DNA of 40,546 nt from a virus. Location of the stretch: positions 1 through 40,546 of IMG/VR virus record IMGVR_UViG_3300031772_000094. One strand, 5' to 3'. The notes beneath the pieces were generated by a model. It searched no databases, had not been told where the DNA came from, and was given only the letters and a program-made list of their open reading frames with translations. The stretch's first letter is position 1. Every line of letters begins with the position of its first letter. Both the position numbers and the translations under genes were made by a program. Positions 19,742 through 39,900 of the stretch are shown piece by piece.

Positions 19742-19743
19742 GT

Positions 19744-20022
19744 TTACAAACTCGTTATTCCTTTTTCTGTTAATCCCCACGCAATCGCCGTTCGACCCGT
19801 TGCTTTGCAAGGCCGGCGCTTTATTTCTTCTACTAATCCCTTTTCTCTTAATTCAAAAACTCTCGGTGTTAGGCAATTTATGGGCCATTGAAGGAAGTTA
19901 GCTAATTCGGTATTAGTAAAATTTTCTTTACACTTAAATGCTTCTAAAACCACTTTCTGGCGTTTTCCTAAAGTCGGTTTTACTTCTTCAAAATATGCCT
20001 TCAATGATGTTTGCTGAATCAT
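19744..20022 (-). CDS. Winged-helix DNA-binding protein (92 aa)
   Basis: A winged helix: GKRQKVVLEAFKCKENFTN, ELANFLQWPINCLTPRVFEL (recognition helix), REKGLVEEIKRRPCKATGR. Small phage proteins of this pattern often stand next to replication initiators. It is preceded by an AAGGAT motif 9 bases from its ATG. It may regulate the operon through the structured sequence just upstream, or help at the origin. Confidence 0.75.
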   Translation of the reverse strand: MIQQTSLKAYFEEVKPTLGKRQKVVLEAFKCKENFTNTELANFLQWPINCLTPRVFELREKGLVEEIKRRPCKATGRTAIAWGLTEKGITSL

Positions 20023-20337: not shown

Positions 20338-20619
20338 TTACGACCTTTTTTCCAGTTCCGGGACATCGATTTTCAAAGATGCCCTGATGCCGTGGTGAAA
20401 TCCGGCGATGTCAAGAATTGCTCTGATTTTTGCTGCGTTCTGCCCGCCCTTGCCGATCACTCGGCCGGCGTCGCGGCTGTTCACCTTCGCCGTGAAAAGC
20501 ACTCCCATTTCGTCCGGTTCTTTTGCCTCTACGGAAACTTCTTCCGGGTAAAGAACTATGCCCTTGATCACTTCTGCAAGCCATTCCGCCATTTGGCGGG
20601 GATCCATTTGATTTTCCAT
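20338..20619 (-). CDS. KH-domain RNA-binding protein, KhpA-like (93 aa)
   Basis: Residues about 15-90 are one KH domain, with ADDED helix EWLAEVIKGIVLYPEEVSVE, then AKVNSRDAGRVIGKGGQNAA and IRAILDIAG. The GKGG at 56-59 is an intact GxxG RNA-binding loop. Bacterial KhpA is about 75-80 residues long and works with KhpB on small RNAs and translation. A free KhpA-like protein in a phage recombination operon is unusual; it may have been taken from a host. It might bind phage or host RNA, or act in place of host KhpA. Confidence 0.85.
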   Translation of the reverse strand: MENQMDPRQMAEWLAEVIKGIVLYPEEVSVEAKEPDEMGVLFTAKVNSRDAGRVIGKGGQNAAKIRAILDIAGFHHGIRASLKIDVPELEKRS

Positions 20620-22960: not shown

Positions 22961-23028
22961 CTCTTGTTATAAATACAGAGTTAGGATCTAAAACATCGAC
23001 CCTGCCACTTGGCAGAATTAAATCCGTG

Positions 23029-23105
23029 CGGACCCGGGTGGAATCGAACCAAGCCATCACTCCTGTTGACAACAGGGTGTTCTTTATCCATTGAACTACG
23101 GGTCC
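23029..23105 (-). tRNA. tRNA-Asp (anticodon GTC)
   Basis: 77 bases. Acceptor GGACCCG / CGGGTCC perfect (7 bp); D arm GTTC / GAAC; anticodon loop TTGTCAA with anticodon GTC; T loop TTCGATT. The T stem has only three of five pairs and the first anticodon-stem pair is a mismatch, so the gene is somewhat worn. CCA is not encoded. The 5' end directly abuts the stop codon of the transglycosylase gene, so it must be cut from the late mRNA. A small hairpin CTGCC-AAGT-GGCAG lies 3' of it (23000-23013). Confidence 0.85.
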
Positions 23106-23735
23106 CTATTTATAAAATCCTTTAATTGCAATATTGTTCCATTCGATAAATCTTTCCGTTATTTTACACTTTTGGAAGTTGCTTTCCTTTACCAAAAATC
23201 CTTTCTCCATCAGTTTAGTTATTATCGCTATATGCCAGCTTTTCGGATACTGCAAAATCACCCCTGCTCCTTTTACAGGGACGGTGTTCCCTTCAAGTTT
23301 GCTTAAATCCGTTTTAAGAGGAATATCCAATCCCCAGAATCTTACGGCTGACATACATTCGCATCTAATTTTAACATAGTCTCTTATTTTCGGCGGAAGT
23401 TTATAAAGCCAGACTTCCATGCTTTGCTCCCATCGCCAATATTGTTCGTCCTCAATCATTTGCAGTCCGCACCTCCGGTTATCTTTTTCGTTGTAGATAT
23501 TTCCTTCGCATTGCTCGTCAAAGGTGGATTGAACTATCTGGAACGGCCCGATTCCATACCGGCATCCGTTTGTATTACACACATTCCTTCCCCCACTTTC
23601 CGCTTCCACGATGACCTTCGCTATCTCGGAGGTGTAAGATGACCTCTCTTGGGCCAATGTCCTACTGCTATCGCAAAAAATCACAACCAGCCCTATTCCC
23701 AGAGCGAGTATTAACTTTTTAAGTTTAGTAGGAAT
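23106..23735 (-). CDS. Lytic transglycosylase-like endolysin with N-terminal signal (209 aa)
   Basis: The catalytic part has VIVEAESGG with the presumed catalytic Glu and GIGPFQIVQSTF, as in SLT/goose-lysozyme-like enzymes that cut the glycan chain. Eight cysteines suggest disulfides outside the cytoplasm. The first ATG/GTG (23684) lies inside a hydrophobic segment; the open frame continues upstream through KLKKLILALGIGLVVIF, a good signal anchor, and the only plausible initiation point there is an ATT at 23735, 3 bases after the holin stop. I take that start with caution; otherwise the gene spans 23106-23684. Confidence 0.75.
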   Translation of the reverse strand: MPTKLKKLILALGIGLVVIFCDSSRTLAQERSSYTSEIAKVIVEAESGGRNVCNTNGCRYGIGPFQIVQSTFDEQCEGNIYNEKDNRRCGLQMIEDEQYWRWEQSMEVWLYKLPPKIRDYVKIRCECMSAVRFWGLDIPLKTDLSKLEGNTVPVKGAGVILQYPKSWHIAIITKLMEKGFLVKESNFQKCKITERFIEWNNIAIKGFYK

Positions 23736-24029: not shown

Positions 24030-24803
24030 TTAGATTTCAAATGCTTTACCTAAAAGATAGCCATAAGGAAATACCGACCATCTTTCTATCAGAAAACGTC
24101 TTGTCTTTGGCCCGCAATAACCTATGGTTGGGGTTAAGAAATACTTCTCCTGTAATTTTCTTACTGCTGTCATTGTCTTTCCTCCAAAATATCCAATCGG
24201 TTCAAAATCTACTTCCTCTCCAAGTTCTAATTTGAGGCATGTTTGTAAAAAAGAAACATCATCTCCGGAGCGGCCGTAATACAAATCCCGCGCGAAGTAA
24301 ATCGGAAGCCGGTCACCTTCTCTTATCAGGTAAGGAGTGGGATCAACGAAATCTCCGTATTCGCTTTGCTTTCCTTTTATCGCCACCGAAAAATGCAAAT
24401 GCGTTCCATCTCTGGGATATTGTGGCGTCACTTCCGGCCGGACAAAACCAGTGTTGCCCATAAGGCCGATAACTTCTCCTTGTTTTACTTGCTGATTACC
24501 TCTTACTTGAATTTCAGAAAGATGCCAGTAAATAGTTCTAAAAGAACCGTCTAAACTTTCAAGATAAATTCCGTTGCCTTTTGTTTTCCATTCTGTCTCA
24601 TATACTAAATCCTTAACTATTCCATCGTGAGCGGCCAATATCGGTTCGCCATATCCTTGCTTTTCTCCACCGACAGATATATCAAGTCCATTGTGACCTT
24701 CTAATCCAAAGTTTTTATAATATAAATCCCGATTCACTCCAAACAACTGACTAATATTATTTCCCCACTTGAAATCTTTAATAGGATATTGTAGTTTAAT
24801 CAT
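24030..24803 (-). CDS. M23-family peptidase with peptidoglycan-binding domain (257 aa)
   Basis: A LytM-type metallopeptidase (residues 1-160) with zinc ligands His 37 and Asp 41 in GHNGLDIS and His 137 in THLHFS, plus catalytic His 94 and His 135. It cuts peptide bridges of the wall. A PG_binding_1 domain follows (residues about 175-250: GRSGDDVSFLQTCLKLELG and YFGGKTMTAVRKLQEKYFL). There is no signal peptide, so export would need the holin, or the enzyme is virion-bound. It follows the giant gene after a 134-base gap. Confidence 0.9.
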   Translation of the reverse strand: MIKLQYPIKDFKWGNNISQLFGVNRDLYYKNFGLEGHNGLDISVGGEKQGYGEPILAAHDGIVKDLVYETEWKTKGNGIYLESLDGSFRTIYWHLSEIQVRGNQQVKQGEVIGLMGNTGFVRPEVTPQYPRDGTHLHFSVAIKGKQSEYGDFVDPTPYLIREGDRLPIYFARDLYYGRSGDDVSFLQTCLKLELGEEVDFEPIGYFGGKTMTAVRKLQEKYFLTPTIGYCGPKTRRFLIERWSVFPYGYLLGKAFEI

Positions 24804-24840: not shown

Positions 24841-24945
24841 ATGGAAGATAACATGGAAGACAATCTTAACTTTTTCATTTTCAAATCTCTTGCCAAAATC
24901 GCAGGTATTTTAGGCATTATTTGGATTATCGCCTCTCTCATTTGA
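24841..24945 (+). CDS. Possible membrane peptide, only plus-strand gene (34 aa)
   Basis: MEDNMEDNLN and then a hydrophobic helix (FFIFKSLAKIAGILGIIWII) before TGA. It fills the gap between giant gene and M23 gene and overlaps the giant gene's end by 8 bases. A TATAAT box lies upstream. A 32-codon minus-strand frame in the same place lacks such features. The evidence is weak; an antiholin-like or regulatory peptide is imaginable. Confidence 0.35.
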   Translation: MEDNMEDNLNFFIFKSLAKIAGILGIIWIIASLI

Positions 24946-27900
24946 CGCTTTTTATCCACCTACTGAAATCAGTAGTGCTGACAATCAAACTCTTTGAGGC
25001 CGCTTTTATCCTTTCTTGAAGTATCAAATCGGTTATATCGGCATAATCGGTTTTCATTTCTTGAACTTTCTCTTTTGCTTTTATATTGTATTCGTGAACC
25101 ATTTCGCGGGCTTTTTCTCTCTTTCCGTCGGCCAAGAGATTCATTGCTTCTTCTCTCATATTGTCGTATTTGTTTTGCAAGGAATTAAAAGTATCCCAAC
25201 CTGATTGATTTAATCTTTGCTCGGGAGATCGGCCGCCTAAAAATAATCTTCTAACCGCCTGTTCTTCGGTCAATTTTTCCTTCGGTTTGCCAGTAGCGGT
25301 TCTTAATTCTCCGCCGCCTTCCAATGCCATTTCTATCAACTCAACTTCTTTTATGGCCCGGGGTGTCGGGAATTTTGCGTTTAACACCCATTGCAAAGAA
25401 GGCGGAATCGCTATCTTCAATACGCCTCCTTTAATTTTATCGGAATCGCCATCCCATAGGCCGGTCGCAATATCGCTTAATCCTTCAAGAAAACTCGGCA
25501 CCATAGATTTGCCGACAAGTTCAAAAATTCCGAAACCCAATAAGGCAAGAGGATAAGCCAGAATAGCGGCATTCAATAAGAATCTGATAAATTCTCCGCG
25601 TTCACCTTTTGGCAAGTCGGAGATAAATTCTTTTGTTTTTCCTTGTTCCCTCGCTTTCTTAAAATCTTTTAGCAATTCCCGCGTTCTCTGATTTCTTAAC
25701 ATCTCGGCTACAAATTCGGCCTGCTTGATCGTAAAAGTATTGTATTGGTAATAAAGATCTCCGATAGGGTTATCAAAAATAACTGGTTTTTCCGTAAGAC
25801 CATATCTGAATTGCGTCATATCGGAAATGTCTCTTGCGTATGTTTTTGCTTCTTCTCCAAAAGCATCCGTAAGTTCCGGATATAATTGTGCAAATTTTCC
25901 CTTTCTCGCAAGCAATTCCATATTTTTTGTGGCGGCTAAAGCGGAGGCGACACGGTTATTAAACTCGGAAAGTTTTCCGAATAAGTTCAGCAATCCGCCT
26001 ATTCTGCCACCTGCCGCGTTAAACTCATTATCAATTACATTATCCATTTCCGTAAGCACGCCTTGTTCTCGCCAGTAATCCCATTTTGAAGGCCGGAAAA
26101 AGTCTATAAGCATTTGCCCGTAGCCGGCGAAAGCGCTTCTATAAACATCAATCATATTTCCCCGGAGTTTCGGAATCGTGTTTATCCAAAACTGCGTTAA
26201 GTTTACGGCATAAAAAGGAAGAGATCCGGAAAGATCAACCCAATAGCGAAGCATTTTATTAAATGGCAAAGCTTTTGTTGCCAATCTCGTCGGCACAAAA
26301 CTTTTCGGAATTTCAAGCACTTCTGTAATTCCATTCTGCAGTTCAACTTCAACTGGCTTGCTTAATCCAGGAATATGCGTAAGCGCTTTAACTATCGCTT
26401 CATCAAGGCCTTTTAAGTATGTATCAATCTTCCCGGGCCGGCCGAGAAATCTGTTTAATCTGCCTTTCATATAGACTCTTGATAAGAAAGGAATTTTATC
26501 TCCATAGAAACGCATAAATCTTTCGAATACCCGAACCGGCGGAGATAAATGAATGTATCGTCCGTGAATGCTCACCATCGCTTTTAACGCTTTCCAAAAA
26601 TCTTTTTTAATCGGCAATCCGCCTTTTCTCTGCAAAAGCAATCTATTGAATGCCCCGGCCGGGAATCTTTCTGACAAAACCGCGAATAGTTCGTTGGGTG
26701 GAGTTTTCGTTTCCTGAATAATAAACTTGGCAGCGTCGGTTAGTAGGTTGGTAATATAATTTTCCCGCCTGTTCATTGGTTCAAGCCCCATACCCTGCCT
26801 GGCTTCGTCAACCATATCGGCAGTTTCCTTCGCCATCATTCTTGCTTTATCCACGACCATCGCTTCTTTCTCCGATAATTTAATATCTTTTTCCGGATTA
26901 TTGATCGCTTCAAAAAGCCGTTCTGACTGTTCGGTCATACGTTTCTTGCCTTTCACGAGCATCATTAAACTTTCGCTTACTCCCAAAGATTTCTGCCATT
27001 TTTTGATTTCCGTTACTTTTTGAGCGATAAATTCTTTTTTGGCTTTGTCTCCCGCAAAAACAGGAGCGATTTCTTTCCCTACGCCAATTTTTCTAAAAGT
27101 GAATGAAGGAGTTTTGAACAAATCAAGTAATCCTACACGTTTAAATTCTCTTTCTGCTATTTCTTCCGTGACCAACACTTTTGTTTTAGGTATTGTGATT
27201 CCTCCTCCAAATTTCTCTTTAACTTTTTTAAGCATTTCAATAAACACGTCCGCCTGTTCAGGAGTCATTTTGAGCATTGAATCCACGCCGGTATATGCTT
27301 TTGCGAATTTCGCGAATTGAATATCGGTAATATCTTTTTGGCCCGCTATGATATGGGCTTCTGCTTTCTGCTCTTTTGTGGCTTGCAGTTCTTCAGGCAA
27401 GATTCCTCGTTTTTCCCTACCCATTTTTCTTATATCAGCCATAGCGTCAAATCTTCTGCGGGCTTCTTCCAATGTTGCGAAAGTTTTTATTCTTTTTAAA
27501 ATACCGGTGGAATAAGAAAGAACATAGGGTCGCGGGACCGATTGTTGCAATCTCCTTAACCGCAATCCGTATTTTTCAATCACTTCGCCGGGCTTCATCG
27601 GTTCTGCCGGCACTTTTTCCTTGACGGCTCTCGGCACTTTTGCCCGAGCTGATTGGATTACGCCTTTCTCTTGTAAGGATTTCACGGCATCAGAAAGTTC
27701 AACAGGAATCGGTCTGCCTTCTTGCACGGCCAAGATAACCGCCTGTTCTTCGGGAGTAAATTCTCCGTAGTTTGCGATATTTTCGGAAACACGACTATAA
27801 TATTGTTCTACTACGTTCATCGCTTTATAACTTTTATATGTTCCGTCTTTTTGGACAAAAACCGCATCCACAAAATCCACTCCGAGAAGATTTGCGTATC

Positions 27901-30900
27901 TCTGAATTTCCATTATTGGAATTTCTGCTGTTATATTCGGCTGATAATTGGTAGCGATCACTATTCCCCCGGAATTTGTTTTAGCGACTAATTCCGTAAT
28001 TTTTTTCTTTATTCCGGTAATATTACGAAAAGCTCGCGCCACGATTTGATAACCGTTGATTTTATTTCTACTATCTAACCCTATTAAAGAAATTGTCGGA
28101 ACATCAGAATTGATCGTTTCAGAAAAGAAACGCGCAATCGCCCCCGGATCACGCACCTGATTATTTTCGCTAACAAAGTTTTCATCTTGTATAATTTGTT
28201 CTATTTCGGTGATTGGGATTTTTTCCGGCTTAACTTCTTTTATTCCTTTAGTGGTTTGGGTGTAGATTTTAGTAAGTTGAGGTTTAGTTAACAAATTATT
28301 TTCTACTGTTCTTGCGGCAATTCTTATATACTCAAATTTATTTCTGCCTATAATCTCATCTAATAAATCTTGAATGGTATCTACTTTATATTTACCAGTT
28401 TCTAATTCACTTTCTACAATTCTAATAGCATTTCTAATATATTTTTGATTTTCGGCAGTTTTGGTATTTATAATATCATCAAGAATTTCAGGTATTGATT
28501 TATTTTCCTGTGCTTTCACAAACTCCTCCGCACTCTTATACTTACGGGCTTCTTGAGCTAATGGTTCAAGTTCTTTGGGGATAGTTGGAATCACAAGTCT
28601 TGGTATTCGCGGAGTATATTTGATAACTTCTCCACCACCTTCTTTGGGAATCCATCCATATTCCGTATGATTGATAATAACTCCCCCCGCAAATTCAATC
28701 CCCGAACTTTTAAATGTTTCCTTTAATCTTGCAACCGACATAAGATCGGCTTCCGATGGAGTAGTATCTCCGGATGGGTGATTATGAATAAAATAAACTT
28801 TCTTTGCTTTTGAGAGCAAGGCGGGTTTAATCGCCTCTGATGGATTTAACATTGAACTATCCACATCTCCGATAGAAATAAGACTTGCGTTTATCACTTT
28901 ATCGTCTTTGGTAAGATTCAGAAAAAATACTTTTTCTCTGGCCTCTCTTTTCAATTCGGAAAATATGTCGGCTACATCGTTGGCTGATTCTATCTGAAAA
29001 CTTTTTGCGTAGAAAAATCCCGATTCCTTTAGTTTCAATCTGACATTTGATTTTCTTAATGCGGGAGTTTTTTGCAATTCGTTCAGTGTATTCTCACCGT
29101 AATTCAAAGCACCTTCTCTGACAAATTCCCCGAGACCCAAAGATTGCTCCCTCATTAACATCGGTGCGGTTCCTTGCACGACATTAAACAAATCAATCTG
29201 TTCGGCCGTGGATGTTTTCAGGAAATCCTTTAGATAGTTTTTGTTGAAAACAATACCCCTACCTTTACCTTCAGATTTTATCTGCATCACCAAATAAAGA
29301 TTTTGATTCATTGATACTTTCTCCGGCTTTTTGAAATCGGCGTGTATTTCTCTATTAAAAGTAATTTCATCTGTCTTTGAGGAAAGATTTATTTTATTGT
29401 TCTTCTCGTCAAGATTGAAAGTTATGTCATTTAATTTGGTTTCGGGTGTTTCGTTCAGTGCGTTCAGCAATTCTTCCCGGCTGACGGTAATATGATTTTT
29501 TATTTCTTTCGGAAGGATTTTTTCGTATTCGGGGAATTTTCCGTCAGTTATCCTGCTTACTATTCTAAAATCGCCGAACTGAAATTGAATAAATTTATCA
29601 TCTATGGAAACATTTATGGCGTCTTCGGGCTTGGCCAGTTTAAGCACTCTTAAAAGTTTTTCCGCCGACTTTCCAGGCAATAGCGTTTCAAAATCTGCTT
29701 CTATTTTTGCCGGAATATAAAATTGATACAAACGAAATGAATCGGTTGCCGTCACTCTTAATTGATTTCCTTCGTTCTTAATAAGTATCGAAGCGAGTTC
29801 CGGTCTCATTTCGCTTGACGAAACGGCTTTAATTGTTCTGTTTAATCCTTCTATCAATCTGTCCGAAATAACACGAAACTGCGGTTTGGCTTTTACCTCG
29901 GGAATAAGAGGAAATTCCTCTATAGAAGTTCCTTTAATCTCAACTCCACCAACCTTTCCTGACATTCCCTCTATCATTACTTCCTCTATGCTTTTTCCTT
30001 TAAGAGCATCCGGCGGTAAAACAATCTCTCCTATTTCTCTACTGGCGGTGTATTCAACAGAAAATTCCAAATCAGTGGCGACTATTTTATTTTTCAAAAT
30101 GGCTATACCTTCAATCATTGGTAATCTTTTACTCGTCGCAATTTTAACAATATCAAATATCTTGCTTTGAATATTCCTCGCTGGAGTTTTTTTGACTTTT
30201 GCGGGCTTTTCCGGTGGCGGTTCTATTCCTTTCTTCTGCATAAAATCGGTGGTCAATTCAAATTTCTGTCCTATCTTTTCTTCGGGAAATACACCCTCTT
30301 TGATTTTTTCCTGTTCTTTTGTAAGTTTTGAAGGTTTCTTTAAAGACCACATATCAACCTCAACTTCTCCAGCGGACATTTCCACAATTGCCCTACCGTT
30401 ATCATAAATATTTTTTAAAAGCCCCATTTTTTCTCCCTGCGATGTAGTAAATTTCACAATATCCAATTTCTTAAAATCTCCAACCTCTATGCCATATCCT
30501 TCCTGAAGTTTTGCAGGATCGGCATCTTTATAAAGCACTGGCGGATAAAATTCGTCCAATGCTTCTTCGGTTAATGCTTCTTCGCTGATAAGTAATTCAT
30601 ATTTTCCGTTGCCTAAATCCTTAACAACTTCTTCGCCGATTTGTTGCGCGGATTGCGTATTATATTCATCGATTATTCCTCTTAAATTTTCAGGAACAAT
30701 CTTTCCAGCCCGGATAAGATTGATAACATATCCCAACTGGCTTCTTGGTTCTTCAATGGCCGATACTCTTGCTTTCGTTTCGGCGGTTGGGGTGTATTCA
30801 TCGGTTTTAGTTGTATGAAATACTTGTTTATTATCATCAAATTTTGCTTCACCATCGCCTTCTTTTTCAAGTCCCGCCTCGTAATCTTCATCGGTTACTG

Positions 30901-33481
30901 GTTTATAATCTTTCCAGTCTTCTTCCATCGCTTTCACATCAATCAACCCGCGCTTTTCCAATTCTGCGTTAACCGCATCCAACTGATTTTCCACGATTTC
31001 AAGAAACTCCTCGCTTTTGGTTTCGTCATTTAACTGCGTTTCTAAATTTTGTTTAATTTCTCGAAGTTTTTGGTCGGTTTCAATCGGCAAGCGATCCATA
31101 TTTAATTCAACAAATCCTTTCTCCACTACCTCAAATACTCCACCTGGACTGACAATTTTCCCCGGCCTATACTCAATCGGTATTCCACCCGGAGTTTCTG
31201 TTGGCACAACTTCGGCGATTTCAGGGGTTGGTTTTACTCTTTCTGGCGATACAGTCCATTCCCACTTTTTAATTTCTTCATTCAAAAGTTCTTTTTCTTT
31301 CGGACGATAGAACCTGCCAACAAACTTTTTTTCTTGTGTATCGTAAATGCGTAGATTTTTTTGTCCTTCAACTTCAACTTCTTTGGCGATAAATCTCTTT
31401 TCCCGGATCTCGGGGACCGGTTTTTCTTTTAGCGCCAAAACTCTGTCAATCGCTTTCTCAATGTTTTCGTCCCGGCCGGATTTGGCTACTATGCCAGTAA
31501 TTCCAAGTGGTTTATTAATATCGGTTTTAAATTCTTTGTAAAGATCCAAAACATCATTTTTGATTTGTTCTATTGTGGGTTTTTCTTTATAAACAAAATC
31601 TGTCTGATTTCCCATTTCGCCGAGAGAGTGCGGATAAGAAACTGTCGCTTCGTATTTATATCCGTCCTTGATATAAATTGTATCGCTTTCATCTTTCGGA
31701 TTAAGTTCTCTTATTTTATCAACAAAAGCATCAAGCGAGGATATTTCTTTATCAGTGTTATATTCTGGTAAAATTGCCTTTCTCATTGCCAATAATGTAG
31801 GGTGAATTGGCCTTTCCTCCTCTACGATAGGCGGTTTTGCCACTTTCTCTGCCCGTGGCACGATTATTTCCTCGGAGATGGGTGTTATGACCTCTTTAGG
31901 CTTTTCTGGCTTGATTTCGGCAGGTTTCGGCTTTACAATCTCCTCTGAAATTGGTTTTTTCTTTGGTGGCGCGAATATCGCCTCGGCGAGTTTTTCTTCT
32001 GTTTTGCGTTTGGCTAATTCTTGTTCTTTAGTCAATCTCTGTTTCAAAAGTTCTGTGCCTTTTTCCGTTTTTCTAAACCTTTCTTCTCCTACCAGTCTGC
32101 GTTCAATTCTGCCCGCCGCTATTTCTGCCGGGCCGGGACGATTCGGGACCTCGGGAGCCATTTCAATGATTTCCGGTTTTTGCTCTATCAATCTCACTCC
32201 CATTTCTTCGGCTTGTTTCTGTTTCGCCTTTGATAATTCTTCTTCTGCTTTTGCTTGAAAAGATTTAGACTTGCCTGTCATAAATTCATAAGCATTATTC
32301 ACCTGTGCCATTTTTTGATTGTCCGGTTTTGTTCCGACATCGGGATGATAAATCTTCGCCATTTCATTTCTGGCTTTTTTGATAGTTTCAAAATCCGCGT
32401 CTGGCTTTACTCCCAAAACTCCGGCGGCTTCATTTCTTAAAATCTTTTCGGTTTTTCTTCCTTCTATAAATTGATAACCTTTGCCTCCGGCCCTTGCCGA
32501 AGCGTCAAGCATGCCAAGCACAAATCCGCTTATCAAAGCGTCTTCGGTTGTCCCTCCGCTTAATTTAGTCAATCCGAATCCCAAACCGAAAGCGGCCGGC
32601 ACGGAAAACTTGGCCTGCTTTACATATCCCAAAGCCGAATAAGGCACGGCTAATGCCGTATCAAAAGCCATCCGTTTCAAACGTTCTTTTACTCCGCTTA
32701 CTTCAGGACTTAGTTGTCCATAAATATTAAAAGCGCCGATGGTTGATAAAAACGGCAAGGCGTGTTTCGCCAATGTCGGATAGGACTTTATGAAATTTTG
32801 TATTGCCACCGGTTTTGTTCCAAGAGCGAATAGTCCGGCGGAAAGATATTTTAATGAGGTTACTGTTCCTATGGCATAAGAGAAGTCTGAAACAATTTTA
32901 TCAACAATGTCTTGTGGCGCCGTTGTTTCTGGTTTAATAATTCCCCCAGTAAGACCACTTATCGCTTGCGTTCCATAAGCGAGTTTTCTGGTTATCTCTG
33001 CACCAGTTTTAACCGATATATCTACAAATGGTGAAACATCCTTTCCGCCAACCGTTCCGTAATCAATGATTTCTGTGAGTTTTTGATAAGTCTGTGCATT
33101 ATTGCCTATTTTTAAATACAATTCAGCCGGTTTATTTATAACATAGTCGTTAAAATAAGAAGAAAGTTTTTTTGAAGTATCCGAAATAGCGCCGCTAATC
33201 ATTTCTTCTCCGGCTTTGACAATTCCTTTAATGCCCTTATAAGATTCCGCTTCTTTCTGGTATTTTTCCGCTTCTTGCTGAAGTGTCAACTGAGTTTCGG
33301 GTTCTTCCGGTTTAAAAAATCCTATAATCTTTGACAAAATCCCCTGATTTTCTTGTTCGGTTGGTGCGGGGACAGGCGGTTCAAAAATGGTATCTATTTT
33401 CTGTTGAAAAGTTTGCGGAACATTTGGCTTTGTTTCCACAGAAGTTCCCCCGAAGATTTTATTTAATTCATCTTGAAGCAT
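24938..33481 (-). CDS. Giant polyvalent virion protein: J-domain, sliding clamp, JAMM peptidase (2847 aa)
   Basis: Domains in order: hydrophobic N-terminal part; DnaJ J-domain (about 350-410, HPD at 379-381, with YHPDVGTKPDNQ); long charged Pro/Lys/Glu linkers; a DnaN-like sliding clamp (about 1100-1445) with all three subdomains, shown by RPELASILIKN, TATDSFRLYQFYIPA, RITDGKFPEYEKILP and FNKNYLKDFLKT; a RadC/JAMM domain (about 1490-1620) with HNHPSGDTTPSEAD, His 1566, His 1568 and Asp 1579; a probable second JAB-like domain without its histidines (about 1785-1885, ATNYQPN). A helical C-terminal third with a hydrophobic segment near 2630-2655 resembles large polyvalent or internal virion proteins. 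It is probably injected with DNA. Coding is unbroken and one-fifth of the window. Confidence 0.88.
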   Translation of the reverse strand: MLQDELNKIFGGTSVETKPNVPQTFQQKIDTIFEPPVPAPTEQENQGILSKIIGFFKPEEPETQLTLQQEAEKYQKEAESYKGIKGIVKAGEEMISGAISDTSKKLSSYFNDYVINKPAELYLKIGNNAQTYQKLTEIIDYGTVGGKDVSPFVDISVKTGAEITRKLAYGTQAISGLTGGIIKPETTAPQDIVDKIVSDFSYAIGTVTSLKYLSAGLFALGTKPVAIQNFIKSYPTLAKHALPFLSTIGAFNIYGQLSPEVSGVKERLKRMAFDTALAVPYSALGYVKQAKFSVPAAFGLGFGLTKLSGGTTEDALISGFVLGMLDASARAGGKGYQFIEGRKTEKILRNEAAGVLGVKPDADFETIKKARNEMAKIYHPDVGTKPDNQKMAQVNNAYEFMTGKSKSFQAKAEEELSKAKQKQAEEMGVRLIEQKPEIIEMAPEVPNRPGPAEIAAGRIERRLVGEERFRKTEKGTELLKQRLTKEQELAKRKTEEKLAEAIFAPPKKKPISEEIVKPKPAEIKPEKPKEVITPISEEIIVPRAEKVAKPPIVEEERPIHPTLLAMRKAILPEYNTDKEISSLDAFVDKIRELNPKDESDTIYIKDGYKYEATVSYPHSLGEMGNQTDFVYKEKPTIEQIKNDVLDLYKEFKTDINKPLGITGIVAKSGRDENIEKAIDRVLALKEKPVPEIREKRFIAKEVEVEGQKNLRIYDTQEKKFVGRFYRPKEKELLNEEIKKWEWTVSPERVKPTPEIAEVVPTETPGGIPIEYRPGKIVSPGGVFEVVEKGFVELNMDRLPIETDQKLREIKQNLETQLNDETKSEEFLEIVENQLDAVNAELEKRGLIDVKAMEEDWKDYKPVTDEDYEAGLEKEGDGEAKFDDNKQVFHTTKTDEYTPTAETKARVSAIEEPRSQLGYVINLIRAGKIVPENLRGIIDEYNTQSAQQIGEEVVKDLGNGKYELLISEEALTEEALDEFYPPVLYKDADPAKLQEGYGIEVGDFKKLDIVKFTTSQGEKMGLLKNIYDNGRAIVEMSAGEVEVDMWSLKKPSKLTKEQEKIKEGVFPEEKIGQKFELTTDFMQKKGIEPPPEKPAKVKKTPARNIQSKIFDIVKIATSKRLPMIEGIAILKNKIVATDLEFSVEYTASREIGEIVLPPDALKGKSIEEVMIEGMSGKVGGVEIKGTSIEEFPLIPEVKAKPQFRVISDRLIEGLNRTIKAVSSSEMRPELASILIKNEGNQLRVTATDSFRLYQFYIPAKIEADFETLLPGKSAEKLLRVLKLAKPEDAINVSIDDKFIQFQFGDFRIVSRITDGKFPEYEKILPKEIKNHITVSREELLNALNETPETKLNDITFNLDEKNNKINLSSKTDEITFNREIHADFKKPEKVSMNQNLYLVMQIKSEGKGRGIVFNKNYLKDFLKTSTAEQIDLFNVVQGTAPMLMREQSLGLGEFVREGALNYGENTLNELQKTPALRKSNVRLKLKESGFFYAKSFQIESANDVADIFSELKREAREKVFFLNLTKDDKVINASLISIGDVDSSMLNPSEAIKPALLSKAKKVYFIHNHPSGDTTPSEADLMSVARLKETFKSSGIEFAGGVIINHTEYGWIPKEGGGEVIKYTPRIPRLVIPTIPKELEPLAQEARKYKSAEEFVKAQENKSIPEILDDIINTKTAENQKYIRNAIRIVESELETGKYKVDTIQDLLDEIIGRNKFEYIRIAARTVENNLLTKPQLTKIYTQTTKGIKEVKPEKIPITEIEQIIQDENFVSENNQVRDPGAIARFFSETINSDVPTISLIGLDSRNKINGYQIVARAFRNITGIKKKITELVAKTNSGGIVIATNYQPNITAEIPIMEIQRYANLLGVDFVDAVFVQKDGTYKSYKAMNVVEQYYSRVSENIANYGEFTPEEQAVILAVQEGRPIPVELSDAVKSLQEKGVIQSARAKVPRAVKEKVPAEPMKPGEVIEKYGLRLRRLQQSVPRPYVLSYSTGILKRIKTFATLEEARRRFDAMADIRKMGREKRGILPEELQATKEQKAEAHIIAGQKDITDIQFAKFAKAYTGVDSMLKMTPEQADVFIEMLKKVKEKFGGGITIPKTKVLVTEEIAEREFKRVGLLDLFKTPSFTFRKIGVGKEIAPVFAGDKAKKEFIAQKVTEIKKWQKSLGVSESLMMLVKGKKRMTEQSERLFEAINNPEKDIKLSEKEAMVVDKARMMAKETADMVDEARQGMGLEPMNRRENYITNLLTDAAKFIIQETKTPPNELFAVLSERFPAGAFNRLLLQRKGGLPIKKDFWKALKAMVSIHGRYIHLSPPVRVFERFMRFYGDKIPFLSRVYMKGRLNRFLGRPGKIDTYLKGLDEAIVKALTHIPGLSKPVEVELQNGITEVLEIPKSFVPTRLATKALPFNKMLRYWVDLSGSLPFYAVNLTQFWINTIPKLRGNMIDVYRSAFAGYGQMLIDFFRPSKWDYWREQGVLTEMDNVIDNEFNAAGGRIGGLLNLFGKLSEFNNRVASALAATKNMELLARKGKFAQLYPELTDAFGEEAKTYARDISDMTQFRYGLTEKPVIFDNPIGDLYYQYNTFTIKQAEFVAEMLRNQRTRELLKDFKKAREQGKTKEFISDLPKGERGEFIRFLLNAAILAYPLALLGFGIFELVGKSMVPSFLEGLSDIATGLWDGDSDKIKGGVLKIAIPPSLQWVLNAKFPTPRAIKEVELIEMALEGGGELRTATGKPKEKLTEEQAVRRLFLGGRSPEQRLNQSGWDTFNSLQNKYDNMREEAMNLLADGKREKAREMVHEYNIKAKEKVQEMKTDYADITDLILQERIKAASKSLIVSTTDFSRWIKSVK

Positions 33482-33483
33482 AA

Positions 33484-35244
33484 TTATACATTTCCACCCA
33501 AGGTTAAACCATAAACCGTTCTTAACCTTACTAATGCTGCTGGGCTAAACATATCTGCAACCGCCTTATCCAAATCACCTATATTGGCGTCGGGATATTC
33601 TGCCTGGAAAGCCTTGCGGGCTGCGACATATTTATCCGGGTCATAAAATCCATCTTTCCCCTTCGTTTTTTCTAATCCTGTAATAATAGAACTGATACCA
33701 GCATCAATAGTCGCTTTGGTTGGCTTAGTTTCCACATCGCCGCCGACTATTTCGGTAACTTTATAACTTCCATCCGCGTTTTTCGTCATAATACTATTCA
33801 CGCGTTGGCCGTCGGCATTTGTATAGGAATCTATATTTGAAATAGTTTCCGTTACGGTTTTACTAACGAGACTCAAAAACCCTTTTGGCCAACCAGCCTG
33901 CAATTCAATATTATTCCATTCCAATTTTGTTGATTCTGGAACAGTATCGGGATTGATATTCCCGCCCTTGATAAGATCTATAATAATTTGTCCATTTGCT
34001 CTCGCATTATCCGTAAGCCTTTCCTGATCGGTTTTCTGGCTATCGCTGATTCCTTTAATTAAATTCGTAAGGTTGATTGCATTAGTAATCTTATTCTGAT
34101 ACTCCTTGCTTGCCGTTTCGTAATCTTGGCCAGTCCATTTCATCATCATTTCCACGGTATTGTATTTCATATTCAACTGACCTACGATCCTTGCTCTTTC
34201 CACTTCCAGTTCGCCTTTCTGTCTTTGATATTCAATTCCTAAAGCACTTTGGCGTTTTCTTATTTGTGCCATAGAAACAAGTCGGCCTCCTTCCTCTAAT
34301 TCAGTAGTCTGCCAAGAAGCATCGAGTTGAGCCCTTCTAACATCATTTGCGGCTAAATCTCCCTCTAAAGTTCCCACATTCAAATCTGCAAGTAATTGTT
34401 TGCCGGTTGTAACCATGCTCGGCGCTGTCGGCGGTTTTTGTTCGCTTAATAAGGAAACAACGCTTGCGAACATTTTATTATAATCCGTCGTGCCTGTGGG
34501 CGCTTGAGCGTTTATAGTGGCTAAATCTTTTTGCATGTCTGCGTTGGCTTGCTGATCAGTCTGACCTATCAAAGCCGTAGGAGTTCCCGGAGCGTATGTC
34601 GGGGTTTTGGGAATAGGCGCGCCCGTGGCTTTTTCCACTGCTGTTCTCTGCTCCGGAGTTTGCCATTGAGAGGTTGCAGGAGTGGTTATCGGTTTTGCTT
34701 CCGGTGTAATCTGCGCTTTTAATTCGGGAGATATTTGAGTCGGTTGACCGATTTGTGTTCCTGCGGCAATTTGTGCTTGTTGTTCTGGTGTTGCACCGGC
34801 TCTGGCCAGATTTTCCTGGATAGAAGGACTTTTTGATATTGCTCCCGTAAGAGAAGATGTAATATCGGCTCCCTGCGGATTGATTGGCGAAATGGATTTG
34901 GTTATTACTTCTCCGGTGGAAGTCGGCGTTGTCGGATTGAACGCGCCCCAGTCGCCGGCCGTTGCCCCTCCTAAAGCTGTCTGCGCGTCCGCGCCACTAA
35001 AAGTAGGCAAAGATTCAAAATCCAATCCGTATTTGGATTTTAATATTTCTCTTCCTTTGCTTTCACTTACGCTTGCATGTTCACCTGCTTTCTGTCCTCC
35101 ACCCAAAGCCATTAAACTATATGCCTTGATTGTATTTCCTTCTCTTACATAAACAGCATAAGGGTCATTGGGATACCGAAATACCTGTCCCGTGTCCGGG
35201 ATATTAAATTCAAGGTTTTGATAAGGGACTTTGTATGTTGCCAT
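33484..35244 (-). CDS. Putative internal virion (ejection) protein (586 aa)
   Basis: N-terminal beta part (YKVPYQNLEFNIPDTGQVFR), then a long Pro/Thr/Gln/Ala-rich disordered part (residues about 95-270, with PEQQAQIAAGTQIGQPTQIS), then coiled-coil helices (AQIRKRQSALGIEYQRQKGE, LEVERARIVGQLNMKYNTVE) and a mixed C-terminus. It ends three bases before the giant gene. This build and place resemble ejection proteins of podoviruses, which form a channel across the envelope. Function is inferred. Confidence 0.65.
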   Translation of the reverse strand: MATYKVPYQNLEFNIPDTGQVFRYPNDPYAVYVREGNTIKAYSLMALGGGQKAGEHASVSESKGREILKSKYGLDFESLPTFSGADAQTALGGATAGDWGAFNPTTPTSTGEVITKSISPINPQGADITSSLTGAISKSPSIQENLARAGATPEQQAQIAAGTQIGQPTQISPELKAQITPEAKPITTPATSQWQTPEQRTAVEKATGAPIPKTPTYAPGTPTALIGQTDQQANADMQKDLATINAQAPTGTTDYNKMFASVVSLLSEQKPPTAPSMVTTGKQLLADLNVGTLEGDLAANDVRRAQLDASWQTTELEEGGRLVSMAQIRKRQSALGIEYQRQKGELEVERARIVGQLNMKYNTVEMMMKWTGQDYETASKEYQNKITNAINLTNLIKGISDSQKTDQERLTDNARANGQIIIDLIKGGNINPDTVPESTKLEWNNIELQAGWPKGFLSLVSKTVTETISNIDSYTNADGQRVNSIMTKNADGSYKVTEIVGGDVETKPTKATIDAGISSIITGLEKTKGKDGFYDPDKYVAARKAFQAEYPDANIGDLDKAVADMFSPAALVRLRTVYGLTLGGNV

Positions 35245-35269: not shown

Positions 35270-36646
35270 TTAATCTTCTGTAACCGTTGTTTGTTCTAAA
35301 GATGTAATATCGTAATAAATGCGGAAATTTTTTATTTGAGAGTAAGGGTTTCCGCTTTGAGTCCTTCCCCAAAGTTGGACATTATCATAAGGTGCGACAG
35401 TAATATCTTCAGAATAAGTTATAAAATCAACAACTTCACTATTGGCTCTTTCCGTTCCTACTGCCACGTCATTAACATAGATTTTTCCCCTACCCTGTTC
35501 TCCTACATTATTTGGGTCGCCTCTTAAATCAAATTTGATTCTTATTGTTCCTCCTAACCTGACTATTATTTCTTTTTCTTGCGAATAACTGGTTCCTCCT
35601 ATCGCTTCTTGGGTATCTGCGCTTGCGACTAAAGTATTTGAAGCAGCTACTCCTGTAACATTTAGAAGCAATCCTACTATAGAAAGAGCTGAACCATCCC
35701 AAATCAATTTATTTCCTGCTGAATTACCTATTGAAAGTTTCGGAGTTCCGCCATCGTTTCCAATCCACCAACCAGTTCCAGTATCATAAGCAGTCTGTCC
35801 AGAACGAACTAATCCGCCAGATGGTAAAACTATTGTTCCTGCTGTGATTGCTCCCAAGTCGGCGGCAATGGCGGAAAGTTGAGCAACATTGATTTTATTT
35901 ACCGTGATTGCGCCATCTGAAACATCCGATTCCCCCACATTTCGTGGCGTAGCGGTCGTTCCTGCCGAAGCATTGAATCCCGAAGCATTGCCTTTTCTGT
36001 CAATCGCTTTAATCCAGTAATAATAAGGAGTGGCGGCGGTCAGTCCTGAATCAAAAAGCATATTGACTTTTACCGAAGCAATTTTAACCGCCGAAGCCTG
36101 TGTATCTGCGGTATAACGGTAAATGTCGTAATGGTCCATATCCGTTTCAGTATTCCAAGTCCACTTTAAAAATACGGATTGAATGCCTGCGGAAGCTGTA
36201 AGTCCTGTGGGTGAGGCTGGGGCGACACCATCATCAACCACAACTGAAAATCCAGTTGCTGTCTTTCCATCAATAGTGGAAGTTCCATCAATTACACATC
36301 CCGTAAAATAAGCAACTCCTGTTTTTAATACCTTCGCCACTGCCGAACCTATTGCCGCCGCTCCCCACCAAGCATCGCCGGTATTATTGACGTGAAAAGA
36401 ATTTGCGGTTGTGGTATCGGGAATATCTATTGAATTAGCGACTAAATTTCCTCTGAAAGTTCCTGAATTTGCCTCGAAATCTCCATTATCAGTCAATTTC
36501 CAACCTGCGGAATTGGCGACATAGTTATAAGAATGAATCGCGCCATTGATAACTTTAAATCCTATTTTTGACAAAAGACTCCGCAGATCCGTAAAGAGTT
36601 GTTTTGGTTTTTTCTGTGGTAATGGTTTTTGCTCTATGTATCCCAT
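35270..36646 (-). CDS. Tail fibre or baseplate protein with fibronectin type III domain (458 aa)
   Basis: Residues about 150-230 form a fibronectin III domain (PASPTGLTASAGIQSVFLKW, DHYDIYRYTADTQAS, ATPYYYWIKAIDRKGNAS). Before it are repeated strands of fibre type (NSFHVNNTGDAWWG), after it an SDGAITVNKINVAQLSAIAA segment frequent in phage tail fibres near the central spike, and TGTGWWIGNDGG. The C-terminus is a jelly-roll-like beta domain. It probably binds surface sugars or connects tail parts. Confidence 0.8.
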   Translation of the reverse strand: MGYIEQKPLPQKKPKQLFTDLRSLLSKIGFKVINGAIHSYNYVANSAGWKLTDNGDFEANSGTFRGNLVANSIDIPDTTTANSFHVNNTGDAWWGAAAIGSAVAKVLKTGVAYFTGCVIDGTSTIDGKTATGFSVVVDDGVAPASPTGLTASAGIQSVFLKWTWNTETDMDHYDIYRYTADTQASAVKIASVKVNMLFDSGLTAATPYYYWIKAIDRKGNASGFNASAGTTATPRNVGESDVSDGAITVNKINVAQLSAIAADLGAITAGTIVLPSGGLVRSGQTAYDTGTGWWIGNDGGTPKLSIGNSAGNKLIWDGSALSIVGLLLNVTGVAASNTLVASADTQEAIGGTSYSQEKEIIVRLGGTIRIKFDLRGDPNNVGEQGRGKIYVNDVAVGTERANSEVVDFITYSEDITVAPYDNVQLWGRTQSGNPYSQIKNFRIYYDITSLEQTTVTED

Positions 36647-36655
36647 ATTTTTATT

Positions 36656-38086
36656 TTACTCTAACCCATCGATCTCTATCGCAAGAGGTATTTCTAAAGT
36701 CGGCGCATCATTTGAAGAAACGGTAAATGCGACTTTTATTTGAAGTGAACCGACATTACCAACACTTAAATCCGCGGCAATTTCGTTAAGAAGTGAATTG
36801 GTGACGGAAGTCATGGCGACATAACCTGCCCCGTTAACATCGTATGAAAAAGTAATCCCGGTTGAAGCCGGCAGTGAATTATAAAAACAAGCCACCTTTT
36901 TTAATGTTTTTGAAACATCCCTTTTGTCCTGAAAAAGCATCATAGTCTCTAAATAAGCAGAGGCGTATTTGTTTGACCAATCAATAGCGTCAACTCCTTT
37001 ACTATCTCCGTTTTTCCACGCAACAAGTAGAGTAAAACCGGCAACCATAACAGCGCCGATTTCAATGCTTGACGTCGTTGCTTCAGAAATCACCCAAGAC
37101 AAATCCATTACTTTCGGATAATCTCTTGAATATCCTCCCAATGTGTAAATTCCCTGCGGGGCCGGATTACCCGCGCCATTACTGAATCCAAATATAGGTC
37201 TGTTCATAAAATTCCCGACAGAATCCGGATATACTTCTCCGTATTTCGCGGCCGAATAATCTCCGGGGATTCGTTTATACGGCTCAAGCTGTGAGCCGTT
37301 GTAAAAATACCAATTTCCCGCGAGTCCAGCTTGAACGTAAATATAATTATCATCTTCCATAAAAGCGTTGATTCCACATTCCTCTATCGGATCAGAAGTG
37401 TTCCAAGACGAGGAAACCAGATCCCATCGGATAAGTTCGGCAGTATTAACATACGAGTTTATAAAAGTCCCTATTAAAATATCTTCCTCGTATTTTTTTA
37501 AACATTTGATTCTATAACCGCTTGTCAGATCTAAAGCATTAGCTGTAAATCCGGTGCCGGGTGTGACGCTTATAGTTGAACCAATAGAGGCAAGATATTT
37601 TCCATCGCCAATCCAAAGAGTTAAATCTTGGATGCACATCGGGTGCCACGAAGTATCCGCGTTTGTGAAAGTAGCCCAATCCTGAACGGTTGAAGCCCAA
37701 GCGTCATCGGCATTTGCGACGGCGATCAAATGTATTCTGCTTGGAGTTGCCCATACGATAAATCCGTTATATTCCATAGCGCCTAAACACCAGTCGTCAC
37801 CGGTCCCGGTCGTAGTATGCGCCAAACTCCAAACTCCGGCCGAAGTCCGCGCCCATATCTTCCCCGAAGTGGAAGAAAACCAAAAACTATATCCATTTGA
37901 ACAAGCAACCTTCACTTTGCAAAATTCATCCGGTTCCGTTCCGGAGGTTTCTTTCGTAAGTTTCTGGTGAACTTTCAAAAGACCTGGCGTGCCGTGCAAA
38001 TCCAAACCGACACAGGCAAAAACAGAACCCAAAATTCCACTAAATTTTGAATCACTTAATCCACGAATTGTGTCGAGTATAATCAC
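36656..38086 (-). CDS. Putative tail tube/nozzle-type protein (476 aa)
   Basis: Beta-rich throughout, with repeated blades such as WARTSAGVWSLAHT, CLGAMEYNGFIVWAT, CIQDLTLWIGDGKYLAS and FMEDDNYIYVQAGLAG, which suggest a beta-propeller as in nozzle proteins of podoviruses (T7 gp12-like). Placement before other tail genes agrees. It overlaps the previous small gene by 4 bases. No enzymatic motif. The identification is structural inference only. Confidence 0.55.
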   Translation of the reverse strand: MIILDTIRGLSDSKFSGILGSVFACVGLDLHGTPGLLKVHQKLTKETSGTEPDEFCKVKVACSNGYSFWFSSTSGKIWARTSAGVWSLAHTTTGTGDDWCLGAMEYNGFIVWATPSRIHLIAVANADDAWASTVQDWATFTNADTSWHPMCIQDLTLWIGDGKYLASIGSTISVTPGTGFTANALDLTSGYRIKCLKKYEEDILIGTFINSYVNTAELIRWDLVSSSWNTSDPIEECGINAFMEDDNYIYVQAGLAGNWYFYNGSQLEPYKRIPGDYSAAKYGEVYPDSVGNFMNRPIFGFSNGAGNPAPQGIYTLGGYSRDYPKVMDLSWVISEATTSSIEIGAVMVAGFTLLVAWKNGDSKGVDAIDWSNKYASAYLETMMLFQDKRDVSKTLKKVACFYNSLPASTGITFSYDVNGAGYVAMTSVTNSLLNEIAADLSVGNVGSLQIKVAFTVSSNDAPTLEIPLAIEIDGLE

Positions 38087-38313
38087 TTTTTTATTATTAT
38101 TGGATTGCTAAATTTTGCTCCACCAAATCCAAATTTTTCTGTAGAAGTTTCCATTGATTTTATAATTGCGTCCGCCTGTTCCTGCGTTATACAAATCTCT
38201 TGTGCAGCCTTTATCACATAGGCGCATTCCGGCCTGTTAATTTGTGTTCCTGTAACAAATCCTCCTCCCAAAGTTGCCAAAGTTGCTATTGAAATTTTTA
38301 ATTTGTTATTCAT
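38083..38313 (-). CDS. Small secreted-type protein (76 aa)
   Basis: MNNKLKISIATLATLGGGFVTG looks like a weak signal peptide. The mature part has two cysteines (RPECAYVIKAAQEICITQEQ), which could pair, and a C-terminal tail (FGGAKFSNPIIIKK). It overlaps both neighbours by 4 bases. It might be a spanin-like or envelope protein, but no motif proves it. Confidence 0.55.
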   Translation of the reverse strand: MNNKLKISIATLATLGGGFVTGTQINRPECAYVIKAAQEICITQEQADAIIKSMETSTEKFGFGGAKFSNPIIIKK

Positions 38314-38537
38314 TCTTTCTCAAATTTAATCCCTCTATTTTCTAATAATTTATCCAGTTTTTGTTCAATTATCGGTATCCTTTCTATTCTCACCTCAATC
38401 GCGGAAATCTTGCTTTCGTGTTCAATTACTTTCGAATCCGTTCCGCTTTGCTGGTAAAAAATGTATCCAAAAATCGGCACGAGTATAGTCGCCCCCGCTC
38501 CTATCAACGCTAATAATAAACTTTGTCCTTTGTTCAT
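38310..38537 (-). CDS. Membrane protein with coiled coil, XhlA/holin-like (75 aa)
   Basis: Start MNKGQSLL at 38537, 4 bases after the LamG gene's stop. One membrane helix (LLLALIGAGATILVPIFGYI), then a coiled coil (VIEHESKISAIEVRIERIPI, EQKLDKLLENRG). This order is inverted relative to XhlA, where the coil comes first. A holin accessory or ejection-related membrane protein is possible, though it lies far from the lysis cassette. Confidence 0.55.
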   Translation of the reverse strand: MNKGQSLLLALIGAGATILVPIFGYIFYQQSGTDSKVIEHESKISAIEVRIERIPIIEQKLDKLLENRGIKFEKE

Positions 38538-38541
38538 AAAT

Positions 38542-39900
38542 TTAATCAACCTCATAAAATTCCCAACCTCCTCCTCCGCCGGCCTCGAACGGATATTGAA
38601 AACCGGCTCCGTTATTATAAAGAGCCGCCACTTCATCTGAAGTCAAAACCCTGTTCCAAATGGCAACCTCGTCTATAAGCCCGTCGAATAATCCGTATTG
38701 CCCCGCTCCGTTAACGGTCGCTCCGACTTCAAAAGCAGCGGCGTTATCCCCGATAGAAGAAGCGTTTTGACCCGGATAAGTTCCATCTTTTATTTCATTA
38801 TTCACATAAAGAGCAATATCTTTGGAACTTACGATAGCGGTTGTGATAACGTGATACCAAGTTCCGAGATTAGAAAATGCGTAATCGGTGTATTTGCTTG
38901 TGTAATTGCCTGAACTATCGGCGTAGATAAGTTGCAGATGGTTGGCATCTTCAATTCGGAAGGCATATCCGAAACTAGGCGAAGCGTCAACATCATACTT
39001 AGCCGCTATTACAAACTTGCCTGACGAGTCGCTCGGTTTGGAATCCAACTTTATCCAAGCTGAAATGGAAATGTTTCCCGTGATTGAAAGCGAAGCAGTG
39101 TCGGTTTTATAAGAATACTGCGAACTGTTTCTCGTATAATGAACCGCCTTTCCTATAATTCCAGTTTGATTAACCGTTCCATTGGTCGTTAAATTATTCG
39201 TAGTAACGGAATCGGCGAGGGCAGTCCCCGATGTTTCATCGCATTTCCAGTAAGAAACGAGGTTATTAAGAAGCGTTGAGGGGTCTAATTCACCGACAGA
39301 TTCGCTTCCTGTCGCCTTAATAAACCACTCGCCTAAATCAATCTGTCTCGCGGTCAGTCTTTCTTTCATTGGCAAAGAAGCGATGGCTTTTGAATAATCC
39401 GATTCCGCCTGAAAAAAAATCGTTTCGCCCGACCTTATAAAATAAGAAAAACTTTTATTTAAAATTTGGATGTCTTCCCATACGGGAATCGTTTTTATGC
39501 CGGAAGGAATAATCTCTTGAGTGGTTGTTCCTTTAGCGGGAATGAGCCGCGAAGAAGTCATTTGTGTATCGTTTCTGACGAATCTCCTCACGCTTTTTAA
39601 ATCCCATTTGGCGAAAAAAGCGATTTGGACATTTTGGTCTTTAGATGAAACATTTGAAACGGAAAAATAAATAATGTCTGAATCGTATATCTGCTTATCG
39701 CTCTTTATTATCAAATCTTCTCCATCTGTTTTGTCGGTGTAGGCGATAGAAACATTCTGTTCTCCCATGAAAAAAGAAGCGGGAATCGCGCCGAGTATAT
39801 CCGCGCGGGTCGGAATAAAAGAAGTTCCCGCCGCCAGAGCCACTCCTCCGATAAAAATTCCTATCAGCCACTTTTTGAATTTTTTAATAAAATCAATCAT
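38542..39900 (-). CDS. LamG-domain protein with N-terminal membrane signal (452 aa)
   Basis: Start MIDFIKKFKKW at 39900 overlaps the fibre stop by 8 bases. A signal or anchor follows (LIGIFIGGVALAAGTSFI, residues 12-29). Then comes a beta domain (DIIYFSVSNVSSKDQNVQIA) and a C-terminal LamG/concanavalin-like domain (about 230-435: LVSYWKCDETSGTALADSVT, ISAWIKLDSKP, GTWYHVITTA, GLIDEVAIWNRVLTSDEVAA). Such domains bind sugars or surface proteins. Together with the fibre it suggests an envelope-exported surface component, unusual for phage structural genes. Confidence 0.82.
   Translation of the reverse strand: MIDFIKKFKKWLIGIFIGGVALAAGTSFIPTRADILGAIPASFFMGEQNVSIAYTDKTDGEDLIIKSDKQIYDSDIIYFSVSNVSSKDQNVQIAFFAKWDLKSVRRFVRNDTQMTSSRLIPAKGTTTQEIIPSGIKTIPVWEDIQILNKSFSYFIRSGETIFFQAESDYSKAIASLPMKERLTARQIDLGEWFIKATGSESVGELDPSTLLNNLVSYWKCDETSGTALADSVTTNNLTTNGTVNQTGIIGKAVHYTRNSSQYSYKTDTASLSITGNISISAWIKLDSKPSDSSGKFVIAAKYDVDASPSFGYAFRIEDANHLQLIYADSSGNYTSKYTDYAFSNLGTWYHVITTAIVSSKDIALYVNNEIKDGTYPGQNASSIGDNAAAFEVGATVNGAGQYGLFDGLIDEVAIWNRVLTSDEVAALYNNGAGFQYPFEAGGGGGWEFYEVD

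Follow-up and report, generated by a model that had tools for sequence, protein, structure and literature searches.

One open frame in the IMG/VR virus record IMGVR_UViG_3300031772_000094, a metagenomic contig, encodes a 2847-residue protein that joins a J-domain, a bacterial-type sliding clamp of the DnaN fold and a RadC-type JAB domain in a single chain (positions 24938 to 33481, minus strand, with an ATG start). Positions 1 to 40,546 of this record were analyzed as a whole and are referred to here as the window, and the protein as the window giant. The genomic slot of the gene and the homologues that fill this slot in related phages support, by sequence comparison, the reading of the window giant as a phage-type polyvalent protein, and no other such giant with a clamp turned up in the collections searched. 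The best family matches of the J-domain, clamp and RadC-type domain (E 2.8e-8, 1e-31 and 7.7e-24, respectively) lie far beyond what chance similarity would give, and together with the unbroken frame they confirm a first-pass annotation, made from the letters alone, that had read a J-domain, a clamp and a JAMM domain in one 2847-residue protein.

Domains of the window giant

The clamp occupies residues 1096 to 1450 (positions 29132 to 30196, minus strand), flanked by 1095 residues on its N-terminal side and ≈1400 on its C-terminal side, and was delineated by profiles, alignment and an AlphaFold model. Pfam DNA_pol3_beta_2 matches residues 1206 to 1318 (E 6e-16) and DNA_pol3_beta_3 residues 1321 to 1446 (E 7e-6, slightly below the curated cut-off in the whole-protein scan and above the cut-off in another scan), a PHROG clamp family matches residues 1108 to 1393 (E 6e-30), and clamps in the PDB are matched by sequence alone (E 4e-19). 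TIGR00663 (dnan) matches residues 1180 to 1445 at E 1e-31, with a score of 110 bits that falls below the equivalog cut-off of 138; by these profiles the domain is a divergent relative of cellular DnaN, not its equivalent. An AlphaFold model of residues 1096 to 1462, built with seven phage clamps (pTM 0.64, mean pLDDT 63; domain II good, domain I fair and domain III partly poor around residues 1346 to 1411), aligns over its full length with solved DnaN clamps (≈400 alignment columns, TM ≈0.69, Foldseek probability 1.00). Profiles and modeled fold along the whole region thus place three repeated clamp domains in the chain, with DnaN similarity over all three subdomains.

The first-pass description of a “full” clamp holds for the three domains and is overstated in two respects. 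Domain I is ≈30 residues short (≈87 versus the usual ≈117) yet recognizable in an alignment with stand-alone phage clamps; the Pfam model of the clamp N-terminal domain matched domain II and not domain I, which is supported by the PHROG match, by this alignment and by the AlphaFold model. Furthermore, the C-terminal P-[VM] tail found in 19/19 stand-alone phage clamps is missing, with LGEFVREGA in its place. In DnaN, this tail is part of the pocket where the polymerase and other partners dock, a pocket that in Escherichia coli also involves residues T172, R176, L177, P242 and V247; in our alignments, the equivalents of the first four are retained, and that of V247 is Ile. The first half of the partner-binding pocket is therefore kept and the tail is gone, leaving a pocket that is not intact and that leans toward a modified role for the clamp. 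Short domain I, lost tail and the mosaic nature of these genes would all fit a decaying insert, that is, a clamp gained by chance recombination with no current clamp function. We consider this distinctly unlikely, since domains II and III, although only ≈20 to 30% identical to other clamps, still score strongly against the profiles, implying that selection has long maintained the fold. The pentapeptide QIDLF at residue 1428 (positions 29186 to 29200, minus strand) is the only strict canonical clamp-binding motif match in the phage proteome; it lies inside the clamp's own domain III, on a predicted strand, and was set aside as a probable coincidence.

That a clamp in a polyvalent protein is unusual, as the first-pass annotation had suspected, is borne out by every collection we searched. 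None was found in a giant among 76 other virus records that are related or share the linker motif described below, and IMG/VR scans with the whole protein, the clamp, the C-terminus and a clamp alignment retrieved no second clamp-bearing giant (a first multi-clamp alignment had held no stretch conserved enough to serve as scan query). Among the matches listed from the 50,697 phage records of INPHARED, those with annotation are either clamp genes or genes left unnamed, and the unannotated ones examined (n = 15) are stand-alone frames of 375 to 465 codons. The best 25 plasmid clamp matches are dnaN genes or unannotated, and a genome scan returned ordinary RadC and DnaJ proteins only. The 2017 survey of polyvalent proteins (PMC5512222) does not mention clamp, DnaN, PCNA or DnaJ, and neither this survey nor the literature searched yielded a clamp in a polyvalent protein. 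One apparent relative, L002, was rejected as a stand-alone clamp. Stand-alone phage DnaN clamps, for example, gp203 of Nodularia phage kac65v151, belong to the same three-domain family at 20 to 30% identity and differ in being separate genes with an intact C-terminal tail. We also observed six phage frames of 200 to 253 codons (L197 to L201 and L203) whose clamp is without domain I and shortened in domain III but retains FPDYRR and the C-terminal MP-type motif; by sequence, these are possibly two-domain mini-clamps.

Of the three domains, only the clamp sets the window giant apart within the collections searched, as both RadC and J-domains occur in further phage giants. The RadC-type domain spans residues 1490 to 1615 (positions 28637 to 29014, minus strand), adjoining the clamp, and matches Pfam RadC over residues 1497 to 1608 (E 7.7e-24). 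Its HxHPSG...D metal site is intact, with HNHPSG at residue 1566 and the D in SEAD, so that motif and profile uphold the JAMM assignment of the first-pass annotation with the correction that the domain is of the RadC type. RadC has been argued to lack a ubiquitin-tail groove and to be more likely nucleic-acid related (PMC5512222), an argument that weakens the proposed reading as a peptidase and leaves that role weakly based. Three phage giants of 2367 to 2619 residues (L130, L131 and L132) carry a homologous RadC domain in mid-protein, downstream of a ddrB-ParB domain (Pfam check in L130 and L132). In the same survey, RadC was listed for conjugative elements only and ddrB-ParB for phages only (PMC5512222), and RadC in phage giants thus extends the known distribution. 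Two of the three, L130 and L131, read HNHPA rather than HNHPSG, so that a change in their metal site or in its serine is possible.

The J-domain lies near the N-terminal end (residues 352 to 410, HPD at residue 379; positions 32252 to 32428, minus strand) and matches Pfam DnaJ over residues 355 to 405 (E 2.8e-8). This position is shared with one relative, G021, found through its capsid protein, whose giant has a J-domain at a like distance from the N-terminus (HPD at 358 versus 379) and also carries LPD38, LPD1 and a methylase; outside the J-domain, the N-terminal half of the window giant has no similarity to it. That two seemingly unrelated giants share this J-domain position suggests a testable role for host DnaK in the entry of giant proteins into the cell. 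A phage-encoded J-domain protein that acts on host DnaK is known in Rki of phage RB43 (PMC3486835), which differs in being a separate early protein made after infection and not part of a virion-type giant.

C-terminal to the RadC-type domain is a conserved linker motif, IPKELEPLAQEARKYKSAEEFVKAQENK (residues 1630 to 1663; positions 28493 to 28594, minus strand), with similar stretches, 42 to 77% identical, in otherwise unrelated phage giants. A motif of ≈30 residues, PL.EEA.KY.SAEEFVKAQ, recurs in L133 (residues 544 to 573), in L134 (residues 342 to 373) and in the giants of G006, G009 and G028, and its core AEEFVKAQ is encoded in 28 IMG/VR stretches. The motif may mark a module border, or it may be a processing or folding linker. 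By hydropathy, residues 2150 to 2847 (positions 24941 to 27034, minus strand) form a mainly helical C-terminal region with one membrane-like hydrophobic helix (residues 2631 to 2656; positions 25514 to 25591), and a structure model of the region was too poor for use. In pairwise comparison, the C-terminal 700 residues are colinear with the C-termini of L130 and L131 at ≈24% identity (z ≈3.5), whereas profile comparison with other giants scored barely above or below shuffled controls; homology to L130 and L131 is, on this sequence comparison, suggestive.

Genomic slot and the giants of related phages

On the capsid strand, the gene of the giant sits among late virion genes, between tail-fiber-like genes and an endolysin. 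The major capsid gene (positions 4370 to 5338, minus strand; PHROG 1357, E 4e-67) served as query for finding relatives; its product is ≈36% identical to the capsid proteins of Bacillus phages Page and Pascal, and IMG/VR contains 80 or more relatives of it. The slot was examined in 19 relatives, retrieved in full or to a large extent. A giant frame of 1258 to 2951 residues is present on the capsid strand in 16/19, downstream of the capsid gene by 8.6 to 16 kb in 15 of them (11.4 kb in the window) and by 4.3 kb in one, where it is cut by the contig end; the other three (G007, G016 and G019) have no frame of 900 residues or more. These giants bear on the worry, voiced in the first-pass annotation, that the frame is an assembly artefact joining separate genes. 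The window is a single metagenomic record, a near-identical one (L003) stops short of the giant and no second record covers it; similar-size giants nevertheless fill the same slot in the 16 relatives, and base composition changes little across the giant's domains (37 to 40% G+C). A fusion in assembly is, to our minds, scarcely credible.

Domain scans of 15 giants, including that of the window, found LPD38 in five, ART-PolyVal and a DNA methylase in three each, and LPD1, a Zeta toxin and an M48 domain in one each. The isolated Bacillus phage Page (Pagevirus, NC_022764) has in this slot gp20 (Page_20, 1679 residues), which carries LPD38 and matches the giant of relative G022 at E 7e-78. LPD38, ART-PolyVal and LPD1 in the slot homologues, and LPD38 in gp20, thus mark the slot as a polyvalent-protein slot. 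Relative to gp20, which shares slot and genome plan and is homologous to giants of the window's relatives, the window giant has no direct sequence match, and gp20 lacks clamp, J-domain and RadC. Some of the slot giants are strongly mosaic (G021, G022, G030 and G023): those of G021 and G030 are 70% identical over 285 residues, and those of G023 and G030 are 73% identical over 83 residues, the remainder differing in each pair.

In the Paenibacillus podovirus API480, with a capsid protein ≈31% identical to that of the window, the slot protein gp16 was identified by mass spectrometry of phage particles, albeit unpurified, with 71 unique peptides (PMC6937236). Together with the polyvalent markers of the slot homologues, this result supports the virion-type polyvalent protein of the first-pass annotation, and by analogy with these relatives and from its slot, the window giant is probably carried in the virion. 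Packaging being drawn from slot and relatives, the giant might instead stay unpackaged and work late in the cytoplasm of the infected cell, e.g., coupling replication to packaging. We give this little credence in view of the slot between tail genes and endolysin, the polyvalent markers in homologues and the API480 data.

Compared with the phage-type polyvalent proteins of Iyer et al. (2017; PMC5512222), which are likewise giant, multidomain and encoded in the late virion-gene region, the window giant combines several domains with unrelated activities, adds a clamp and a J-domain, has RadC and is without a recognized LPD domain. Polyvalent-associated domains such as LPD38 are common in the class and not part of its definition.

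The phage genome

A record ≈97% identical to the window, L003, spans the window start into the opposite window end, which indicates that the genome in the window is near-complete and circularly permuted; some bases are rearranged or missing at the junction where L003 bridges the two ends. By sequence, the phage is a relative of the Pagevirus podoviruses. Its gene content includes terminase, portal, tail-fiber-like genes, an M23 endolysin, an exonuclease, NinB and NinG, with a weak match to a single-strand-annealing protein. Family matches assign DnaC-like and DnaD-like helicase loaders to positions 18477 to 19810 (minus strand), so the phage is already provided with access to the host replisome, a point missed in the first-pass annotation. 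In agreement with the first-pass annotation, no recognized polymerase, clamp loader or second clamp was found in this near-complete genome, and the phage uses the host replisome. The genome plan of phage Page matches that of the window, both helicase loaders included, and a Bacillota host is hinted at by the DnaD-like loader and by the kinship with Pagevirus.

A 586-residue gene with no family match (positions 33484 to 35244, minus strand) ends directly upstream of the giant's start and is, by position, a candidate second virion or ejection protein. Further upstream, a tail-fiber-like block (positions 35270 to 39963) includes a tail-fiber family gene (35270 to 36646) and a lectin-like gene (38542 to 39963), all on the minus strand, whereas downstream of the giant, an endolysin-like gene encodes an M23 peptidase with a peptidoglycan-binding domain (24030 to 24803, minus strand). 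Elsewhere, a 93-residue protein (20338 to 20619, minus strand) has a KhpA/KhpB-type KH RNA-binding domain (E 1e-12), to our knowledge unusual in a small phage. A 192-residue protein with no family match (23106 to 23684, minus strand) looks, by eye, lysozyme- or transglycosylase-like (ESGG...GPFQI), and a tRNA-Asp gene (23028 to 23105) adjoins it.

Possible roles of an embedded clamp

We give a probability of about 0.4 to the reading that the window giant is a packaged and ejected polyvalent protein whose clamp stands in for the host beta clamp. From the observed domains, frame, slot and polyvalent homologues, we infer packaging, ejection and each activity as follows. The giant would be a late product that is packaged into the virion and leaves it, by ejection, together with the DNA; the J-domain, near the N-terminal end, would reach the cytoplasm early and recruit host DnaK, which would help to pull, refold or redirect the entering protein. 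The clamp domain would then act beside the incoming DNA as a substitute for the host beta clamp, binding some host clamp-docking proteins and so favoring early phage replication or diverting these proteins from the host or its defense, while the neighboring RadC-type domain would there act on nucleic acid or a nucleotide. The helicase loaders and the lack of a polymerase in the genome favor this reading. A sharper form, in which a ready-made clamp carried in the virion with a DnaK-recruiting J-domain and RadC seizes clamp-dependent host proteins on the incoming genome before phage gene expression, is tentative, and we hold it to be somewhat unlikely.

Several points weigh against a substitute clamp. 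The clamp is embedded in a long chain, and with its conserved C-terminal tail and a portion of domain I missing, ring closure and loading may be impaired; a host also has its own clamp, which makes the benefit of bringing one not obvious. Neither a family scan nor an LPD38 search found LPD38 or another recognized polyvalent or LPD domain in the window giant, its C-terminus is weakly similar to other giants, and API480 gp16, detected in unpurified particles, has no detectable similarity to it; the phage is known here from a metagenomic contig. For a phage with helicase loaders of its own and the host's clamp at hand, the simple provision of an absent clamp is not a compelling explanation; tethering close to the incoming DNA, or action as a decoy, fits better.

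As a decoy only, the clamp would never encircle DNA and would soak up host clamp-binding proteins (the replicative polymerase or repair, initiation-control or clamp-linked defense proteins), halting host replication or blunting defense. In its favor, the main pocket residues are retained while changes affect the tail and a portion of domain I, which a normal ring with a full pocket requires; counteracting host systems is the role commonly ascribed to polyvalent proteins (PMC5512222). On the other hand, all three domains are retained, beyond the needs of a decoy pocket, and no partner is known; as the sole role, this is unlikely in our estimate, although present data do not separate tethering from decoy. 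The degraded pocket would also fit a loss of partner binding in a structural use, with the clamp fold as a ring or collar of the ejection apparatus around or guiding DNA in the virion or a trans-envelope channel. Clamps are natural DNA-encircling rings, and the protein is of the virion type by its slot; the other slot giants have no clamp, so the apparatus works without one, and we know of no precedent for a clamp fold as a structural part of such an apparatus. We regard this use as very unlikely. On balance, the first-pass interpretation was right in kind (polyvalent, probably injected and with an unusual clamp) and unproven in mechanism, including the proposed capture of the host polymerase by a clamp whose partner pocket lacks its tail.

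Virion-delivered replication factors are rare, and the N4 virion RNA polymerase, of ≈3500 residues, is the best-known nucleic-acid machine delivered in this way. N4 offers a parallel in that a giant virion protein carries such a machine into the cell (PMC5512222), the N4 cargo being a polymerase with its own catalytic activity and that of the window giant a clamp. With the window giant, clamps, J-domains and RadC join the cargo known for phage polyvalent proteins, and a delivered clamp, if true, would mean that phages can bring the docking platform of the replisome itself.

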